From Pyrobaculum ferrireducens (GTDB lineage Archaea > Thermoproteota > Thermoprotei > Thermoproteales > Thermoproteaceae), in contig NC_016645.1 in assembly GCF_000234805.1 (NCBI RefSeq), forward strand, positions 906,391 to 970,390: DNA of 64,000 bases. Direction: 5' to 3'. The translations under genes were made by a program, and so were the position numbers. Position 1 is the stretch's first letter; every line of letters begins with the position of its first letter. Shown in pieces: positions 6,386-31,137 of the stretch. Under the pieces are notes generated by a model. That model was not told where the DNA came from. It saw nothing but the letters and a program-made list of their open reading frames with translations, and did no database searches.

Positions 6386-6898
6386 GCCACTGTAGACTTA
6401 TAGATTTTAAAAAATTACCTCTAAGCAGATTAATGCATATGATGAAACGGCCGTGACTTGAAAAGTGAAGAGGTGTTTCTAAACTGATTAGAAGACTTTT
6501 TTCAGTCATTTCCCGGTGCGCGGGAACTGCGCCGCTACATATCTTTATATATGGGGGTGTTTTCTGGAAGTTTTGGCGGGGTCTATGGATGTGTTGGTTT
6601 TAAAACAGTACCCTCAATTTACAGATATTATCGATATATAGACTAGTTTGTTGGAACTTCTATCTATATATTTTTTCTTTTTGACTGATTTAAAGTGGGT
6701 TGTTTGATGGTTTTTGTTTTTGTATAGGGGGTCTGGTATCTTCGCCGAGGAAGGGTTTAAATGGGTTTAAACCGGCGTCTGCGGGGTGGTTGTTCTTAGA
6801 CCTGGGCTCCCGCCCTTCGCCTTGCTCCACTACAGAGACTTCGACGTGGTGTGTTCGGAGCTGGGCGGGGTTTGTGAGCACCTAGATAGATAACTCTA
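6386..6898. other. Intergenic region holding one C/D box sRNA and remnants
   Basis: AT-rich stretch of about 510 nt between the ABC operon and a decayed PaREP2b-like gene. It contains the sRNA at 6439-6487 and a shared TATA box near 6404-6416. The part at 6770-6893 has a frame reading ALLHYRDFDVVCSELGG and ending at a TAA at 6891. It resembles coding DNA and may be a displaced N-terminal remnant of the downstream family protein. Nothing else convincing is seen at 6490-6770. Confidence 0.5.
6439..6487 (+). ncRNA. C/D box sRNA (2'-O-methylation guide)
   Basis: The four boxes are in order with textbook spacing: C box ATGATGA (6439-6445), 12-nt guide AACGGCCGTGAC, D' box TTGA (6458-6461), 3-nt spacer, C' box GTGAAGA (6465-6471, one mismatch to RTGATGA), 12-nt guide GGTGTTTCTAAA, D box CTGA (6484-6487). 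A TTTTAAAA-type box at 6406-6416 lies about 25 nt upstream and is near-palindromic, so it may serve this RNA and the divergent ABC operon. By the N+5 rule the guides would direct methylation of the C in GUCACGGCCGUU and the G in UUUAGAAACACC. I could not check which rRNA or tRNA carries them. Confidence 0.75.
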
Positions 6899-24095: not shown

Positions 24096-24389
24096 CTACT
24101 CGCCGTGCGGGTTGAGTTGTAAGAAATCCTTAACCCACAGGTACTTCGATGTTAGTTTTATCAGCTTTATCCGGGGGCTGGGCTTGTGGACCTCCAACAC
24201 CCCGGCCTTCTCAAGTCTCTCGATATGCCGGTAGAGAGTTTTCGGAGCCACTCCAACCCTCCGGGCTAGCTCCCTCAATGTGAGGCCGTAGTGATCCTGG
24301 GCTAATACCTTCACAATTTTCCAAGGAATGCTGTCGTTGAAGACCTGGTTAATGAGTCGAAGTAAATGCTCGTTATTAAGCTTATCCAT
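24096..24389 (-). CDS. Winged-helix transcriptional regulator (pilus locus)
   Basis: A 97-aa protein. LTLRELARRVGVAPKTLYRHIERLEKAG is a clear helix-turn-helix plus wing, in the ArsR/MarR-like fold, at about residues 35-63. The N-terminal helix may dimerise. It is divergent from another wHTH gene at 24501, and both flank a perfect inverted repeat (24432-24449). That repeat recurs before the pilin-like genes, so this protein is a prime candidate for the local regulator. ATG 24389 has an ACTTAAAATA box at 24407-24417. The near edge of the repeat is 43 nt upstream of its start. Confidence 0.8.
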   Translation of the reverse strand: MDKLNNEHLLRLINQVFNDSIPWKIVKVLAQDHYGLTLRELARRVGVAPKTLYRHIERLEKAGVLEVHKPSPRIKLIKLTSKYLWVKDFLQLNPHGE

Positions 24390-24431
24390 ATACTGCTTTG
24401 AGCAATTATTTTAAGTATTTTATCCAACGAC

Positions 24432-24449
24432 TGTTTCCATAAGGAAACA
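24432..24449. promoter_or_regulatory. Operator a: TGTTTCC-ATAA-GGAAACA, shared by two divergent regulators
   Basis: Perfect 7-bp inverted repeat with a 4-bp spacer in the divergent gap between the two wHTH genes. Edge-to-start distance is 43 nt to ATG 24389 (minus strand) and 52 nt to ATG 24501 (plus strand). It sits just upstream of both TATA boxes. It is the best-conserved member of the family of sites listed below and suits autoregulation. Confidence 0.7.
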
Positions 24450-24500
24450 ACAACGCCACAGCGCACAGCAAAATATTAAAAAGATCACTAACTACCACAC

Positions 24501-24740
24501 ATGGAGTATTCCGATGCATATAAGCGTCTTTCTGAACTCTTTCAAGATGATGTAAAGTGGTGTATCATCAAATACCTCGTAAAACACAGAGAAGCGCCCA
24601 TCAAAGATGTGGCCAAAGCTTGTGGAACCTCCATAGGAGAAATAATTAAGATCCTGAGAGAGATGGAGCAGAAAGGCGTAGTGGAGCTCAGAATCGAAAA
24701 AAGCCGGCAGTACGTCCGCCTCAAAGGTGTTTCCGAGTAG
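24501..24740 (+). CDS. Winged-helix transcriptional regulator (pilus locus)
   Basis: A 79-aa protein built almost entirely of one winged helix: WCIIKYLVKHREAPIKDVAKACGTSIGEIIKILREMEQKGVVELR (split here by loops), with recognition helix SIGEIIKILREME and a wing ending RQYVRLKG. ATG 24501 has an AAATATTAAAA box 24 nt upstream. Its stop lies inside operator b. The gene opens the rightward part of the locus (zinc ribbon, pilin-like genes). Confidence 0.8.
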   Translation: MEYSDAYKRLSELFQDDVKWCIIKYLVKHREAPIKDVAKACGTSIGEIIKILREMEQKGVVELRIEKSRQYVRLKGVSE

Positions 24741-24745
24741 AAACA
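24728..24745. promoter_or_regulatory. Operator b: TGTTTCC-GAGT-AGAAACA
   Basis: Same 7-4-7 layout as operator a with one mismatch in the right arm. It overlaps the last codons of the wHTH gene and is 74 nt before the zinc-ribbon start. A more degenerate copy, CGTTTCC-AGAT-GGGAATT, follows at 24748-24765, 54 nt before that start. Confidence 0.6.
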
Positions 24746-24818
24746 AACGTTTCCAGATGGGAATTGTAACACGCAACCCCCAACTAAACCCTTAAATACA
24801 CCACGCTCCACCCATCCA

Positions 24819-24992
24819 ATGATTTCTAAATTCCAACTACAAATCAAATGCCCAAACTGCGGCAGACACTACATAGTAGAAACCAGAGATGCACAATGCC
24901 CCTACTGCGGTGCCCACTACACCCTTCACATACAGATACAACTCACCCCCAGAAACAGCCGCCACGGTGTTTACACAAAGAAACACTTGTAA
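24819..24992 (+). CDS. 57-aa zinc-ribbon protein
   Basis: A small gene with two CxxC knuckles: CPNCGRHYIV (from Cys11) and CPYCGAHYTL (from Cys27), then a short basic tail. The two halves look like a repeated CPxCGxHY unit. ATG 24819 has a CCTTAAATACA box at 24790-24800, 24 nt upstream. Its 3' end contains operator c for the next gene. The position between the regulator and the first pilin-like gene suggests a regulatory or assembly-control role, which is not proven. Confidence 0.75.
   Translation: MISKFQLQIKCPNCGRHYIVETRDAQCPYCGAHYTLHIQIQLTPRNSRHGVYTKKHL
24968..24985. promoter_or_regulatory. Operator c: TGTTTAC-ACAA-AGAAACA, before the first pilin-like gene
   Basis: 18-bp site inside the 3' end of the zinc-ribbon gene, followed by CTTGT. 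Its right edge is 42 nt before GTG 25027. The TATA-like CATTTAAAAC (24999-25008) lies between the site and the start. Confidence 0.65.
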
Positions 24993-25026
24993 GCCAACAT
25001 TTAAAACAACAGGGGCAAGTTAATCT

Positions 25027-25488
25027 GTGAAGCCATTAGCAACCTTAGCAACAGCACTTATCCTAGCAACCATCGCTACGACGGCCGCCACATGGGCAGA
25101 CCTCCTACCAATAAAACTAAAGGCAAAAACAGGCACCATAGATCTCAACCTACAAAACACATCATACAGTTGCGGAAAACAAAACACAGATGTTTCAATA
25201 TCGTCCACTAAGACAGATAGCTCCTATACAATAACAATAACAGTGGATCCGCCGGGCATGAGTACAGATAGTTGTTCTATAACGCTCACTTTTCAAAACA
25301 CCGGCACCATCCCCATCAAAATCCACACAAGCACATCATATACAGGCGCAGATAGTTGCACGTCAAACCCCACCACCACAGGTAGAGTGGATCCAGGTGG
25401 GACCACCAACATCAACATCTCCGTCTTCAACTGCCAAGGTAGTTGCACCTGCACGGCCACAGCAACCGCCAAGCCTTGGAACCAATAG
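25027..25488 (+). CDS. Secreted TasA/AbpA-like protein, small Cys-rich paralogue (pilin-like 1)
   Basis: A 153-aa protein with an N-terminal hydrophobic signal segment (residues about 4-21) leading to TWADLLPIKLKAKTGTIDL, the counterpart of LWADVLKI...TGxxD in the three larger paralogues. The mature part is Thr/Ser-rich beta structure with seven or eight Cys (SYSCGKQ, DSCSITL, DSCTSN, NCQGSCTC) and ends PWNQ, matching QWNE in the others. The TasA/camelysin and archaeal bundling pilus subunits share this plan: the freed N-terminal strand fills the groove of the next subunit. A GTG start lies 25 nt after CATTTAAAAC. Confidence 0.7.
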   Translation: MKPLATLATALILATIATTAATWADLLPIKLKAKTGTIDLNLQNTSYSCGKQNTDVSISSTKTDSSYTITITVDPPGMSTDSCSITLTFQNTGTIPIKIHTSTSYTGADSCTSNPTTTGRVDPGGTTNINISVFNCQGSCTCTATATAKPWNQ

Positions 25489-25504
25489 TTTCCACAAGTA
25501 AACA
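25487..25504. promoter_or_regulatory. Operator d: AGTTTCC-ACAA-GTAAACA, before pilin-like 2
   Basis: One mismatch per arm to the operator consensus, same 4-bp spacer, followed by GTTGGTGGGC. Right edge is 43 nt before ATG 25547. It begins within the last codon/stop of the preceding pilin-like gene. Confidence 0.65.
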
Positions 25505-25546
25505 GTTGGTGGGCTAGATTTTAGAGCAGACAACCAGGCGGTGCTT

Positions 25547-26239
25547 ATGAAAGTGAAGTACGTGACAGCTGTCTCAGTAACATTCTTGTTACTGGTGGTC
25601 GCCACAGCCTTCGCACTGTGGGCAGACGTCCTAAAAATACACGTAGAGACAAGAACAGGCAACATCGACATACAATTCGACGGAACCCCAAATGCCATTG
25701 AGTACACAGAAGATACCGGTACGATAGGAGAGTACGAGGGTAAAGACGTGGCTAAGTGTGAAGCCGAATTAGTGGAAATGCAGAATGAGGAGACTTTTGC
25801 ATCAGGTGCCGGCTTACTGCCGCCGACTTGGAACCCCTCGTCGGGGAACAACGACTTAGAGCTACACATCGCGGTATCAAACGCGTATCCTGGCTACATA
25901 TGCAAGATTGGCAATATCGCCGTGAAAAACACGGGAAGCGTGCCAGTTAAGGTGCTCGTAAAGATCGTTGATAAGGACGGCAATGTCATTAGGCCGGAGC
26001 GCTACTTTGGAGGATTTATATCATACATAGACACAGACCGCGACGGGTGCACAGAACTGGACCTAGACTTCTCCAGCTTCTTTACCCTAAACGGCACACA
26101 GCTCCACCCAGGCGGCTCGCAACAATTCACAGTGAACCTAAGACTACCCATTGAGAGACAAGAATGCATAAAAGAAAACACCACCTACGAATTCTACATA
26201 ATAATCATTGGCTACCAGTGGAACGAATATCCACACTAA
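25547..26239 (+). CDS. Secreted TasA/AbpA-like pilin protein 2
   Basis: About 230 aa. Residues 1-23 form a signal peptide ending TAFA; then comes LWADVLKIHVETRTGNIDI, the strand expected to be donated to the neighbouring subunit in a donor-strand-exchanged filament. The mature domain is beta-rich with four Cys at positions shared with paralogues 3 and 4 (KCEAELVEM, YICKIGNIAVKNTG, GCTELDLD) and ends YQWNE. ATG 25547 is chosen over the GTG at 25541 because it follows a basic MKVK and an ATTTTAGA box about 28 nt upstream. It would be exported by Sec and trimmed by the signal peptidase encoded at 27608. Confidence 0.78.
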   Translation: MKVKYVTAVSVTFLLLVVATAFALWADVLKIHVETRTGNIDIQFDGTPNAIEYTEDTGTIGEYEGKDVAKCEAELVEMQNEETFASGAGLLPPTWNPSSGNNDLELHIAVSNAYPGYICKIGNIAVKNTGSVPVKVLVKIVDKDGNVIRPERYFGGFISYIDTDRDGCTELDLDFSSFFTLNGTQLHPGGSQQFTVNLRLPIERQECIKENTTYEFYIIIIGYQWNEYPH

Positions 26240-26254
26240 CCCTCAATCCTTTTT

Positions 26255-26272
26255 TGTTTCTTAAATGAAACA
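26255..26272. promoter_or_regulatory. Operator e: TGTTTCT-TAAA-TGAAACA, before pilin-like 3
   Basis: Inverted repeat with perfect 6-bp arms TGTTTC/GAAACA, followed by CTTGTTTAGC. Right edge is 43 nt before ATG 26315. It lies in the short gap after pilin-like gene 2. Confidence 0.7.
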
Positions 26273-26314
26273 CTTGTTTAGCTAAAAATTTTACCTCCAC
26301 ACAGTCTTAAACCT

Positions 26315-27550
26315 ATGAACAAGAAATACGCAACAGCCATAGCCACTGCGATGTTGCTACTAACAGTCGCCACGGCCTTCGCACTGTGGGCAGACGTCCT
26401 AAAAATCAAACTTACAGCCTACACCGGTAGCGTTGATATGGAGTTCGGCGACACCTTTACTATTACTGAGTATGTTGGATTTCCAGACGGCAGTGGAGGT
26501 TGGAACTTCGTACAAGAGGGCAGTGACCCAGAGGCAAAAGACGTGGGCAACTGCCAAGCAGAACTAGTAGAAGTTGAAGACGAGGAAGGTTCTCTTTCGT
26601 CATCCGGCGACAACGATCTTGATTTAAAAATAACGGTAACAAACGCCTATCCTGGGTATAAGTGTAGTGTTACATTTAATGTTGTTAACACCGGCACGAT
26701 ACCCGTCAAGGGGCCGGTCATCGTCATCCCCTCTAGCCCATGGACCGACGGCAACATCCTAGTGGAGCACGACATAACCACCGCGGCGTGTACACAGCTA
26801 CACCCAGGCGACACCCAGCGCTTCCAAGTCAACGTAACGACGCTACAAGCCGCAAGCGAGTCAACGACATACACAGTCCAGATATACCTACGCTACGACC
26901 AGTGGAACGAGGCTGAGTGCCCAGGCGAAGGAGGAGGCGCAGGCGAGCTCAGCCTCAGCAAGTACTTCACCAGGAGTGGGGCTGGCGACCCTCTACCAAC
27001 CGACGATGGATACCCCTACATAGATATCCAGGTTAGAAATGACGGTAGATTTGGCCAAACTAACCCTGACCATGTGATTATGGTTGTTGCTTTGCATAAC
27101 CAGTTGGGGTTCGCCATGGATACATCAGCCACGTCTTTACAAATAGTGGATCAGCTCCCAGACGGCTGGGGGTTACCGACTAGCGGTAGTTGGGATAGTA
27201 AGGTAAAGGTCTGTATATTCAACACGCTACCCTCCAACTTCCCAGACATTGGGTTTGATAATCCATGTAGCGGCGGAACTCAAGTGACCAGCGCAAGTTT
27301 CAGCTACTCAGGAGGCACTTTGACGGTAACCATTAATGAGCCCACCGTCCCGAACAATGGATATGTGGTCGTCGTTATTAAGTCTGTGTTTACAAAAACC
27401 GGCAACCCGGTGCCACCCGGCTACTTTGATCAAACTGACTCTAGTCCTCCGCACACCGGCAATTACCGCCTCTTTACGAATAGTGCGTCAGCGACTTGGG
27501 GCGACTACACAGCGAACGTAGCGGCGAGTTTTAGAGGTTACGAGAAATAG
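26315..27550 (+). CDS. Two-domain TasA/AbpA-like protein (pilin domain plus C-terminal beta domain)
   Basis: A 411-aa protein. Residues 1-23 are a signal peptide ending AFA; 24-205 are a pilin domain like its neighbours (LWADVLKIKL, CQAELVEVED, YKCSVTFNVVNTG, DQWNE). After a Gly-rich linker (GEGGGAG) comes a second, beta-rich domain of about 190 residues (SLSKYFTRSGAG, YIDIQVRNDG, LTVTINEP) not shared with the paralogues. An 81-nt stretch (26439-26519) is identical to 29889-29969 in paralogue 4. The extra domain would suit a tip, anchor or adhesive subunit; this is inferred from architecture only. Confidence 0.75.
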   Translation: MNKKYATAIATAMLLLTVATAFALWADVLKIKLTAYTGSVDMEFGDTFTITEYVGFPDGSGGWNFVQEGSDPEAKDVGNCQAELVEVEDEEGSLSSSGDNDLDLKITVTNAYPGYKCSVTFNVVNTGTIPVKGPVIVIPSSPWTDGNILVEHDITTAACTQLHPGDTQRFQVNVTTLQAASESTTYTVQIYLRYDQWNEAECPGEGGGAGELSLSKYFTRSGAGDPLPTDDGYPYIDIQVRNDGRFGQTNPDHVIMVVALHNQLGFAMDTSATSLQIVDQLPDGWGLPTSGSWDSKVKVCIFNTLPSNFPDIGFDNPCSGGTQVTSASFSYSGGTLTVTINEPTVPNNGYVVVVIKSVFTKTGNPVPPGYFDQTDSSPPHTGNYRLFTNSASATWGDYTANVAASFRGYEK

Positions 27551-27607
27551 TTAAATGCTGAAAAGGTAAATGTTTGTTTTTTAATTATTGGTTTCCTTAT
27601 TCCTAAT

Positions 27608-28750
27608 TTGGTTTTTCTCTTACCTGGCTGGGGGGGCACCGTGGCGGTTTATGGGGGGTGGCTTCTGCTTTTCTTGGCTCTGTCTCGGAGGCTGGGTGGG
27701 GGGGCTGGGGTGGTTTCGCTGTGGGAATCTCTGTGGCTGGGGATGGTCGCGGTGGCGTATCTCACCGTGATGGGCTTTTTCTTCGGCTTCGCCGTGGTTC
27801 CCTCGCTCTTTAAGCCTGACTTCTTTGCTGTGTCTGCGGCTTTGTGGGGGGTTAAGTTGCTTGGGGTGGAGGCTCTGAGATACGCCGTGTTGAGGACTAG
27901 GTGGCCCTATCTCTTGAAACTGGCGGTGTCTATTGGGGTTGGTGTCTTCTACGGCAATACTATATACACTAATGCTAAGGTGCTGTCAGGCCTCGCGGCT
28001 CCTGAGGGGTGGGCTGGGTTCCTTATCTCGTTTATCCCGGCGGTGTTTTACAACGTGTTGCTTGCCTATGTATATATGTGGGGGGGCTTTAGGCAGGGCC
28101 TTCTTCTTGCGGCGGTGGTGTCGGGGTACTGGGAGCTCTCGCCTGTGAGGCTGACTTCTTCACTAGGCGCCGTAGGGTCGGTGCTTCAGCTGGTGCTGTA
28201 CTACGGGCTGTATCTGGCGGTGTCTAGGAGGTTCCAGCCTCTCAGAGAGCTTAAGGAGGAGTTCTTCGCCTCGCGGTGGAGTCGAGTTCTTGAGTACTTC
28301 TTCCTAGTCGTCGCGGTGGCGGCTGCCGGCTCTGTCTTGTCTCTGGCGCTGACGGGCCACGTCCCAGTGGCTGTGGTGAGCGGTAGCATGAGGCCTGTCT
28401 ATGACGTAGGTGACTTGGTGATTTTGAAGAGAACTTCCGACGTGGCTGTGGGTGACGTGGTGGCGTTCGTCGTGGAGGGGCAACTGGTGATGCATAGGAT
28501 CGTTGCCGTGACGCCTGACGGGAAGTTCGTGACAAAGGGCGACGCCGTACCGGTGCCCGACCCGTGGCTGGTGCCTAGGGAGGCGGTGGTGGGTAAGGCT
28601 GTTTATAGAATTCCCCTGTTGGGGTACCCTGTGATGTATATACACACCTCTGGGTTTAACATAATGCCTCTGCTGGCGTCTGGGTTGCTGGGGGGAATTG
28701 TTATAAACGAAGTTTTGAAGGCGAGGCGTGGACGCCGGCTTGCTACGTAA
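27608..28750 (+). CDS. Signal peptidase I, Ser-His (SipW/ER) type, with N-terminal membrane domain
   Basis: A 380-aa protein. The first 210 residues hold about six membrane helices of no recognised family. The C-terminal S26 domain has the catalytic Ser in VVSGSMRP (Ser260) and VMHRIVA (His296), with His where bacterial LepB has Lys: the archaeal/ER/SipW form. It is flanked by TasA/AbpA-like secreted proteins, as SipW is in Bacillus, so it is probably the dedicated processing enzyme. TTG 27608 follows a TTTTTAATTAT box by about 25 nt; GTG 27641 is possible. The downstream gene overlaps its end. Confidence 0.85.
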   Translation: MVFLLPGWGGTVAVYGGWLLLFLALSRRLGGGAGVVSLWESLWLGMVAVAYLTVMGFFFGFAVVPSLFKPDFFAVSAALWGVKLLGVEALRYAVLRTRWPYLLKLAVSIGVGVFYGNTIYTNAKVLSGLAAPEGWAGFLISFIPAVFYNVLLAYVYMWGGFRQGLLLAAVVSGYWELSPVRLTSSLGAVGSVLQLVLYYGLYLAVSRRFQPLRELKEEFFASRWSRVLEYFFLVVAVAAAGSVLSLALTGHVPVAVVSGSMRPVYDVGDLVILKRTSDVAVGDVVAFVVEGQLVMHRIVAVTPDGKFVTKGDAVPVPDPWLVPREAVVGKAVYRIPLLGYPVMYIHTSGFNIMPLLASGLLGGIVINEVLKARRGRRLAT

Positions 28751-29699
28751 AATCGCTAAGTGGCCTCACCTAGGCACAGTTGCCTATTTTGCCGGTTTTC
28801 TACTGCTGAGCCTCGGCGCCATAGCGGCGTTGCTGTCATACACCCAGCCGGCCACGCTGGTTAGGGAGGAGCTGGAGTACTCCTTCACGATCACATCTAA
28901 ATTCGACGGCTACGTAGATCTAGTGCCTAATCCAGTGTTTGGCGAGAGGGTGCGCCTCGGCTCGTTGCCGGTTTACCTATCCGCGGCGCGCAACGTCACA
29001 GTGACCCACAGCTTGTCTTTCTCAGGCGGCGTGTTCCGCGGCGGCGTTAGATACGACGTGTATCTGGTGCACCCAGACGGCTGGAGGCTTCTCTACATGG
29101 CAAACGTCTCTCTGCCCCTCTCGATAAACATAACTGACGCCGCAGTTGCCATCGACGGCGTGGCTAAGATATTCGGCGTCTCGGCCTCCGACTTCTCCAT
29201 CCAGGTGGTGGCCAGGGCCGCCGGCCAGATGGTACGTGGCCCCTACACTGTCGATGTGGAGCTCCAGCACCCCATCTCAATCTCGGTGTCCAAGGGGAGG
29301 AATAGGCTAGAGCTTGTGGGAAACCTCACAGCATCTAAGAACTACAACTCAACCAGGAAGGTGGCGATCCCGGTGTACATCGCTGGGCGCCCCGTTGAGG
29401 AGGTGCGGACCCTCTCCGTAGAGGTGGCCGTGGTCGGCGCCGCTTTGGTGGTGGGCGCCACCGCGCTGTCGGCAAGGCAGAGGAAGCCCGAGGAGGCGGT
29501 TGACGAGAAGCTAGCACCCCTCACGGTGGAGGTGCTCGAGGCCGAGGTGCCGGTGGCCGCCATGTTGCCGGTGGCCAGCCCAGAGGTGTTGGCTAAGCTG
29601 GCTAAGATGCTTGAGCGGCCCATAATTAAGCAGAAGTGGAGGGGCAAGGTGAGGTACATGGTTCTGGACCGCGGCGCGGCTTACTACTACGAGGTTTAA
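28728..29699 (+). CDS. DUF5305-like membrane protein of the pilus locus
   Basis: A 323-aa protein with a first membrane helix at about residues 17-37, an extracellular beta-rich region (TITSKFDGYVDLVPN, VTVTHSLSFSGGVFRGG, NLTASKNYNST) and a second helix near 227-244, then a cytoplasmic tail. The plan and the position after an S26B peptidase match DUF5305 proteins, which occur beside such peptidases in other archaea. It may be a filament anchor or assembly factor. GTG 28728 overlaps the peptidase gene by 23 nt, so the two are translationally linked. Confidence 0.65.
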   Translation: MDAGLLRKIAKWPHLGTVAYFAGFLLLSLGAIAALLSYTQPATLVREELEYSFTITSKFDGYVDLVPNPVFGERVRLGSLPVYLSAARNVTVTHSLSFSGGVFRGGVRYDVYLVHPDGWRLLYMANVSLPLSINITDAAVAIDGVAKIFGVSASDFSIQVVARAAGQMVRGPYTVDVELQHPISISVSKGRNRLELVGNLTASKNYNSTRKVAIPVYIAGRPVEEVRTLSVEVAVVGAALVVGATALSARQRKPEEAVDEKLAPLTVEVLEAEVPVAAMLPVASPEVLAKLAKMLERPIIKQKWRGKVRYMVLDRGAAYYYEV

Positions 29700-29703
29700 C
29701 AAC

Positions 29704-29721
29704 TGTTTCCTCCACACACCA
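29704..29721. promoter_or_regulatory. Operator f (half-conserved): TGTTTCC-TCCA-CACACCA, before pilin-like 4
   Basis: The left arm is perfect and the right arm matches at only three of seven positions, but the CTTGTTGGGC that follows agrees with sites c, d and e. Right edge is 44 nt before ATG 29765. Weaker binding is expected if this is functional. Confidence 0.5.
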
Positions 29722-29764
29722 CTTGTTGGGCAAGACTTAAACCCCTAGCCAACACCCAGTACAC

Positions 29765-30394
29765 ATGAAGAAGTTAACTACAACAGCAATAGCAACACTA
29801 GCAGTACTAATAGCAGTAGGCGTAGCCTTCGCACTGTGGGCAGACGTCCTAAAAATACACGTAGAGGTACAGACAGGCGACGTTGACGTGGAGTTCGGCG
29901 ACACCTTTACTATTACTGAGTATGTTGGATTTCCAGACGGCAGTGGAGGTTGGAACTTCGTACAAGAGGACAGTGACTCAGAGGCAAAAGACGTGGGCGA
30001 CTGCCAAGTACAACTGGTGGAAATTGAGAACGAAGAGGACACTTCACTTGGTACCTCTGCTGGAGACAACGACCTCGATCTAGAAATAACTCTGTCTAAT
30101 GCCTACCCAGGTTACAGATGCGACGTTCAGTTTGAAGTGCAGAACACGGGTAGCATACCAGTTAAGCTATACTTCTACGACAGTGACAACAACAGGATAA
30201 CACTGCCTGCTACAATTAACATTGGAGGCGGGGCTGTGATTTGTGAGTTAAGCGGCACAGACGAGGCACAGGTTCACCCCGACGACTCCGCCACCTATAC
30301 GCTGTCGTGTGTGGTGCAACAGAGCGCCGCAGAAGATAGTACATACTCAACACAGATATATATACAGGCACGTCAGTGGAACGAGCCGCCGTAA
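29765..30394 (+). CDS. Secreted TasA/AbpA-like pilin protein 4
   Basis: A 209-aa protein. Signal peptide 1-23 ends AFA; LWADVLKIHVEVQTGDVDV follows. The mature domain has the shared Cys positions (DCQVQLVEIE, YRCDVQFEVQNTG, VICELSG, LSCVVQ) and ends RQWNEPP. It is the single-domain paralogue closest to protein 3: 81 identical nucleotides span DTFTITEYVGFPDG. It may be the main filament subunit, but expression data are needed. The start has GACTTAAAC as TATA-like element 24-32 nt upstream. Confidence 0.78.
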   Translation: MKKLTTTAIATLAVLIAVGVAFALWADVLKIHVEVQTGDVDVEFGDTFTITEYVGFPDGSGGWNFVQEDSDSEAKDVGDCQVQLVEIENEEDTSLGTSAGDNDLDLEITLSNAYPGYRCDVQFEVQNTGSIPVKLYFYDSDNNRITLPATINIGGGAVICELSGTDEAQVHPDDSATYTLSCVVQQSAAEDSTYSTQIYIQARQWNEPP

Positions 30395-30807: not shown

Positions 30808-31137
30808 GTGTCGGTGTTTGTGTCGGTTATTAATCCTGGTGATAAGGCGAGGTTTGGTGAGGATTCCACGTTCTTGGTTTTTAAAAACGCCGAGGCGGTG
30901 GCTAGGCGGCTGGGGGTTGAGCTGGTGGTGGGCGGCGACGTGCTTAGGATTGGGGATTTTGAGGCTAGGTGGGCCGGGGGGAGGCTTGTGGTGGGGGATT
31001 TTTCTGCCGAGGTTGATGTGGAGCAGTGGGAGGCCTTTGTGTCTCTTGTGCTTAGCTACTTCGTGGGGGTGGGGCGGCCGCCGGATGGGGCGGCTCTGCG
31101 GGATATTCTCTTCGCCGTCGGCGTCTCGACTGGGTGA
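30808..31137 (+). CDS. Hypothetical protein, 109 aa
   Basis: A beta-alpha mix with no membrane segment or signal: FLVFKNAEAVARRLGVELV, then FEARWAGGRLVVGDF and a helix EQWEAFVSLVLSYF. No family recognised. Three in-frame GTGs (30808, 30814, 30820) can start it; TGTTAAATA at 30790-30798 places a leaderless start best at 30820. Confidence 0.5.
   Translation: MSVFVSVINPGDKARFGEDSTFLVFKNAEAVARRLGVELVVGGDVLRIGDFEARWAGGRLVVGDFSAEVDVEQWEAFVSLVLSYFVGVGRPPDGAALRDILFAVGVSTG

Follow-up and report, generated by a model that had tools for sequence, protein, structure and literature searches.

What does the locus at positions 24,096 to 30,394 of the analysed 64,000-nucleotide stretch of DNA from the heat-loving archaeon Pyrobaculum ferrireducens (the window; positions 906391-970390 of a single 2.47-Mb contig) encode, how is it controlled and how did it come to occupy its site? 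We propose that it is a complete operon for a donor-strand filament, an archaeal bundling pilus of the AbpX type, whose genes are switched together and whose main block (type B) has replaced an operon of another kind (type A); we put the probability of this reading at about 0.83. The initial annotation had described a self-contained locus resembling TasA and archaeal bundling pili, with four paralogous secreted subunits, a Ser-His signal peptidase, a DUF5305-like membrane protein, two winged-helix regulators and a zinc ribbon. An open reading frame (ORF) check placed all these genes at the coordinates then given, both regulators match the Pfam family HTH_24, and the locus is indeed self-contained in that no further subunit genes were found elsewhere in the genome. 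The operator palindromes, the adhesin-like domain of one subunit, the apparent gene conversion between two subunit genes and the cassette exchange described below go beyond that annotation. The genes are listed here, with winged helix-turn-helix abbreviated as wHTH and with G and L numbers denoting compared genomes and loci.

24096-24389, minus strand: wHTH1, winged-helix regulator (Pfam HTH_24, E 1.6e-10; synteny)
24501-24740, plus strand: wHTH2, second winged-helix regulator (Pfam HTH_24, E 4.9e-6; 45% identical homologue in G003)
24819-24992, plus strand: zinc ribbon of 57 residues with CPNC...CPYC (weak zinc-ribbon matches; identity 67% in G003, 38% in G002)
25027-25488, plus strand: S1, divergent AbpX-like subunit with a PWNQ end (phmmer to AbpX, E 4.7e-4; tree)
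25541-26239, plus strand: S2, predicted filament subunit (52% identity to a G011 subunit; tree)
26315-27550, plus strand: S3, two-domain subunit (ORF; about 200 residues beyond QWNE)
26315-26929, plus strand: N-terminal part of S3, with signal peptide, predicted donor strand at residues 24-41 and a beta-rich filament domain ending in QWNE (AbpX, E 1e-5; AlphaFold2 (AF2) model of the N-domain)
26930-27547, plus strand: C-terminal part of S3, residues 232-411 modelled as an MSCRAMM-like adhesin domain (SdrD/UafA N3/A3; VIA-align, Foldseek)
27608-28750, plus strand: Ser-His signal peptidase of the endoplasmic reticulum (ER)/archaeal type with a long N-terminal membrane domain (NCBIfam sigpep_I_arch; alignment)
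28728-29699, plus strand: DUF5305-like protein (AF2 model, predicted local distance difference test (pLDDT) 91.0; profile and synteny)
29765-30394, plus strand: S4, predicted filament subunit (57% identity to the S3 N-domain; a 156-nt DNA block 92% identical)

The four secreted proteins each carry the features first noted in them, namely a signal peptide, A-x-A or A-A, the motif x-W-A-D-x-L...TG and a QWNE or PWNQ strand. Their paralogy is real: a search with S4 recovers S3 (E 9e-67) and S2 (E 9e-30), and a family profile that includes S1 matches AbpX (E 5e-18). Single-sequence searches with S1, S3 and S4 match AbpX ('Archaeal bundling protein X'; PDB 9sj2 and 9rhp) with E values of 1e-5 to 5e-4; S2, 45% identical to S4, gave no AbpX match when searched alone. 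With subunit profiles built from 16 and 37 sequences, the AbpX match reaches E 4.8e-18 and 6.4e-23, respectively. The homology extends over most of the domain at about 30% identity and includes the same W-x-x-x-L...TG donor-strand segment; the deposited 9sj2 chain has its Trp as second residue. The window differs from AbpX, compared here as a protein, in encoding four subunits and in the adhesin-like domain added to one of them. TasA was marginal in the 16-sequence profile search (E 0.7), the TasA/camelysin family PF12389 scored 14.2 bits against a cut-off of 22.5, and no TasA Pfam match in the genus rose above the cut-off. The kinship first suggested stands through AbpX but not through TasA itself. 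No AbpA entry was among the profile matches at E ≤ 10, its presence in the searched library being unconfirmed. PMC11952670 describes TasA, ABP and ABPx, the last from Pyrodictium abyssi, as donor-strand-exchanged bundling fibres, and the AbpA pili of Pyrobaculum calidifontis resemble the system proposed here as TasA-like donor-strand filaments, according to PMC9905601, PMC9674648 and PMC9715654. The subunit profile is also marginally similar (E about 0.03) to PDB 8fk7 and 8q30 (flagellin, DUF4352 protein) around N-x-G-x-x-P-V-K, which may be a shared strand motif; a relation to type IV pili or flagellins was set aside, the similarity being confined to that stretch.

The segment behind the signal peptide has the marks of a donor strand. 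Among 37 homologous subunits, Trp two residues past the predicted cut never varies, and conservation of the Ala before it is at least 90%. In chain 9rhp_A the strand WSETLSLSATISTG is appended at the C-terminus after GGGG and aligns with WADVLKIHVEVQTG of the window subunits. This terminus, GGGG-QWSETLSLSATISTG, repeats the strand found at the N-terminus of AbpX itself, and 9rhp is apparently a donor-strand-complemented construct, following the usual way of making such monomers. Judging from the alignment, the appended strand corresponds to the WADVLKIHVEVQTG segment that the initial annotation had flagged. In the AF2 model of S3, the N-domain is all-beta, with core blocks at pLDDT 85-94, and residues 24-41, after the signal peptide and ahead of the first strand, are left without a partner, which fits a predicted donor strand.

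The catalytic Ser-His dyad claimed for the peptidase is present at invariant positions, Ser in SGSM and His in MHRI (S260 and H296 in the alignment), and the enzyme scores 81.6 bits with sigpep_I_arch, above the cut-off of 51.85. With 48.2 bits against a cut-off of 190 for the SipW equivalog NF046067, it is not SipW by its sequence, and it may function like SipW. Among 11 congeneric genomes, the subunit genes and the peptidase co-occur in the same four. The P2' residue of TasA is Phe, an aromatic residue, and the protein is cut poorly by LepB and handled by the ER-type SipW (PMC10269814); the simplest reading is that the peptidase here would be dedicated to signal peptides with Trp at P2'. The TasA-TapA-SipW system of Bacillus subtilis shares the Ser-His peptidase, the aromatic P2', the logic of a donor-strand filament and possibly a minor starter subunit. 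It differs in the marginal sequence similarity of TasA noted above, and the tasA operon is without DUF5305, these regulators and the zinc ribbon, all of which are present here.

The gene of the DUF5305-like protein overlaps that of the peptidase by 23 bp. With the DUF5305 family (PF17231) the window protein scores 22.0 bits, below the cut-off of 29, and its homologues in other genera reach E 3.7e-12; we therefore retain the name 'DUF5305-like'. Its AF2 model predicts a transmembrane (TM) segment at residues 15-38, an extracellular Ig-like beta domain at 43-215, a second TM segment at 223-250 and a cytoplasmic alpha/beta domain at 254-322. A profile of the protein detects it in 47 of 397 Thermoproteota genomes and 30 of 170 genera. 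At the well-flanked loci (at least 5 kb on either side; n = 19), a Ser-His peptidase gene in the same orientation is no more than 1.6 kb away in 18, often overlapping or adjacent, and AbpX-type subunits lie within 6 kb in 15. Sets of two to five subunits, peptidase and DUF5305 recur over the Thermoproteota, often including a two-domain subunit. What had looked like a more elaborate system than a single pilin with its peptidase is therefore a conserved operon of the phylum: the description holds as an inventory, and the comparison of loci shows the set not to be unusual. At the type-A loci of the genus, the gene just ahead of that of the peptidase encodes a membrane protein unrelated to DUF5305, with a signal peptide, an ectodomain and a C-terminal TM segment; homology between the two was rejected, as hhalign aligned the TM segment only (E 0.065). 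At L118, L131 and L142, pairs of DUF5305 and Ser-His peptidase genes occur with no recognised subunits nearby and may serve other substrates or highly divergent filaments. We found no paper on DUF5305 in the literature searched.

S3 may bring an adhesive function to the filament. Its residues 232-411, as modelled, superpose on SdrD with a VIA-align Z of 11.0 (root-mean-square deviation 3.0 over 146 residues), the best Foldseek match has E 2.5e-6, and the fold neighbours are the N3/A3 domains of SdrD, UafA and ClfA together with Gram-positive pilins (108 chains at Z of at least 8). The likeness to the MSCRAMMs SdrD and UafA is one of modelled fold; unlike them, the domain has no shown sequence relationship to the family, lacks an LPXTG anchor and is carried on a filament subunit. 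Long two-domain subunits of 418-502 residues occur at L129, L130, L137 and L138, and two of these four fall in the S3/S4 clade of the subunit tree; homology of the S3 C-domain to the C-terminal ends of long subunits from other genera was not accepted, the register being plausible and the match not significant (E 0.073). The 156-nt block shared by S3 and S4 points to recent gene conversion, because third codon positions are identical over residues 46-75, compared with 13-53% past residue 91.

A palindrome, GTTTCC-N4-GGAAAC, links the promoters of the locus. It precedes both wHTH genes, the ribbon gene and the genes of S1 to S3. Six copies with at most two mismatches lie 37-74 bp upstream of these starts, each of the six genes has a copy at 37-54 bp, and degenerate half-sites precede S4:

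24433-24448 (palindromic): putative operator, GTTTCC-ATAA-GGAAAC, perfect, 43 bp to the wHTH1 start and 52 bp to the wHTH2 start
24729-24764 (palindromic): two putative operator copies before the zinc ribbon, at 24729 (one mismatch) and 24749 (two mismatches), from the genome motif scan
24969-24984 (palindromic): putative operator before S1, 42 bp to its start
25488-25503 (palindromic): putative operator before S2, 37 bp to its start
26256-26271 (palindromic): putative operator before S3, 43 bp to its start
29705-29730, plus strand: degenerate operator half-sites GTTTCC...TGTTGGG before S4 (matrix score 9.7)

The site at 24433 is the only perfect one in the 2.47-Mb genome, all three sites with no or one mismatch are at the locus, and so are six of the genome's 35 sites with up to two mismatches, where about 0.1 would be expected by length. 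A matrix built from the promoters of other genomes only ranks locus sites first to fourth and places seven of its eight top matches there (both window strands counted). The motif was first spotted by eye at this locus, a bias partly offset by counting sites over the whole genome and by deriving the matrix from other genomes. The palindrome is extended by TGTTGG immediately upstream of a TATA-like stretch. It is also present upstream of genes at the loci of G002 and G003 and, in G011, at the subunit and wHTH promoters, and was not seen at loci outside the family; homologues of wHTH1 are found by synteny at the related loci of the family in G002, G003, G009 and G011. The wHTH proteins encoded next to it are the likely binders of the palindrome. 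The reading frame of one G011 subunit gene, at L058 (6964-7993), is broken into two that overlap, owing to a frameshift, decay or an assembly error; the operators beside it, at 6750 (minus) and 6885 (plus), are intact.

At this site the window and its congener G003 carry different operons between near-identical flanks. The flanks are 97.4% (5.3 kb) and 92.7% (2.4 kb) identical; between them G003 has a type-A pilus operon whose body cannot be aligned with that of the window, and inside the locus only the regulators and the ribbon align (68%). G002, with flanks about 65-75% identical, likewise has type A at the site. In trees, the window peptidase and DUF5305-like protein group with those of G011, G411, G306 and G187, which belong to another genus and other families (support 100/100 and 100/99), the type-A peptidases of the genus form a separate clade (100/100), and S2, S3 and S4 follow the same pattern. 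Because flanks of 97% and 93% identity enclose different pilus operon types, the comparison indicates that the block of subunits, peptidase and DUF5305 has been exchanged beneath conserved regulators. Type A was probably there first and the type-B block arrived later, since both G002 and G003 have type A at the site and the window genes group with other genera and families. S1 groups in the tree with AbpX and the type-A Pyrobaculum subunits; it is cysteine-rich and possibly a relict of the displaced operon. GC content was discarded as a sign of foreign origin: the subunit genes have 0.48-0.51 against 0.57 for the window, but the type-A subunit genes of G003 are also AT-rich. A conserved flanking ORF at 30808-31137 of the window (INPGDKARFGEDS...) stands beside the pilus site in G000, G002 and G003 and may mark the exchange site. 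Type-A loci of congeners further encode a small secreted protein whose strand behind the signal peptide is similar, V-x-x-x-TGSW (L054:6547-6960, L055:10098-10523, L056:10743-11126); one of these is found by the subunit profile at E 4e-7, and the protein is possibly a cap or starter subunit.

We propose a scheme in which (i) one or both wHTH proteins would recognise GTTTCC-N4-GGAAAC in the promoter regions, turning the genes on or off jointly; (ii) the peptidase would remove the signal peptides just before x-W-A-D, with the aromatic residue at P2'; (iii) the freed N-terminal strand, WADxLKxxxxxxTG, would insert into the neighbouring subunit, whose beta-sandwich is incomplete; (iv) S4, S2 or both would form the shaft, S3 would add its MSCRAMM-like adhesin domain at the tip or the side, and S1 may be a minor or relict subunit; and (v) the two-TM DUF5305-like protein, encoded by a gene overlapping that of the peptidase, would probably serve as membrane anchor or assembly partner. 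The subunit-peptidase-DUF5305 block would have replaced a type-A operon at the site, the regulators being kept.

Several points weigh against this reading. No filament has been observed in this organism, and the filament proposed here is predicted from the genes; AbpX and TasA are missing from the listed structural neighbours of the whole-S3 model, because the C-domain filled that list; the model confidence of this C-domain is modest (block pLDDT about 42-82); S1 is placed on a long branch; and the wHTH proteins are candidate partners of the palindrome. The four proteins could instead be peptidase-matured beta-sandwich proteins of the camelysin/M73 kind that are secreted as monomers or associate with the S-layer and do not polymerise. 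A weak resemblance to M73 speaks for this alternative, which we consider improbable: that match (E 0.039, below the cut-off) is far exceeded by the one to the filament protein AbpX, and the post-signal strand is conserved and left unpaired in the monomer model.

A further point against our reading is that the fold search with the DUF5305-like protein gave generic Ig-like matches only (best Z about 7); its role is therefore deduced from gene order, the fold search being uninformative. The main rival to an anchor or assembly role, and one that we regard as possible, is that DUF5305 belongs to the signal peptidase, as a subunit that regulates it or sets its specificity, or that it senses secretion stress and signals inward through its cytoplasmic domain. 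This would explain why its gene almost always adjoins or overlaps that of the peptidase, even without recognised subunits (L118, L131, L142), and why the cytoplasmic alpha/beta domain is conserved. However, subunits are also present at 15 of the 19 well-flanked loci, an Ig-like extracellular domain suits contact with pilins, and type-A loci fill the slot before the peptidase with an unrelated membrane protein. This last difference in membrane partner families also bears on the origin of the locus, for which an old divergence of one inherited operon, without cassette exchange, would be the alternative. Such a divergence would account for the regulators, ribbon, subunits and peptidase common to both types and for the homology of wHTH1, wHTH2 and the ribbon at the DNA level. 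We judge it improbable, as the body is unalignable between flanks that are 93-97% identical, and the peptidase and DUF5305 trees put the window with other genera and families.

In summary, our analysis favours a jointly switched AbpX-type pilus operon that was exchanged as a cassette, and ties DUF5305 to donor-strand filament operons across the Thermoproteota. It supplies candidates for an anchor or assembly partner of archaeal bundling pili, for an adhesin-bearing subunit and for transcriptional control by a regulator and its operator; in the literature searched, we found no description of such an adhesin-like subunit domain, of an operator-controlled regulon of this kind or of whole-cassette exchange. 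We tentatively suggest that the bundling-pilus operons of this archaeal family may be exchangeable surface-antigen cassettes, in which one site and one regulator-operator system would host swappable subunits and membrane partners from other genera, with gene conversion between paralogous subunit genes adding variation and DUF5305 as a previously unnamed assembly component; the outcome would be serotype-like switching, perhaps driven by viruses or kin recognition. The presence of different pilus cassettes inside near-identical flanks makes the turnover of archaeal filaments directly testable.
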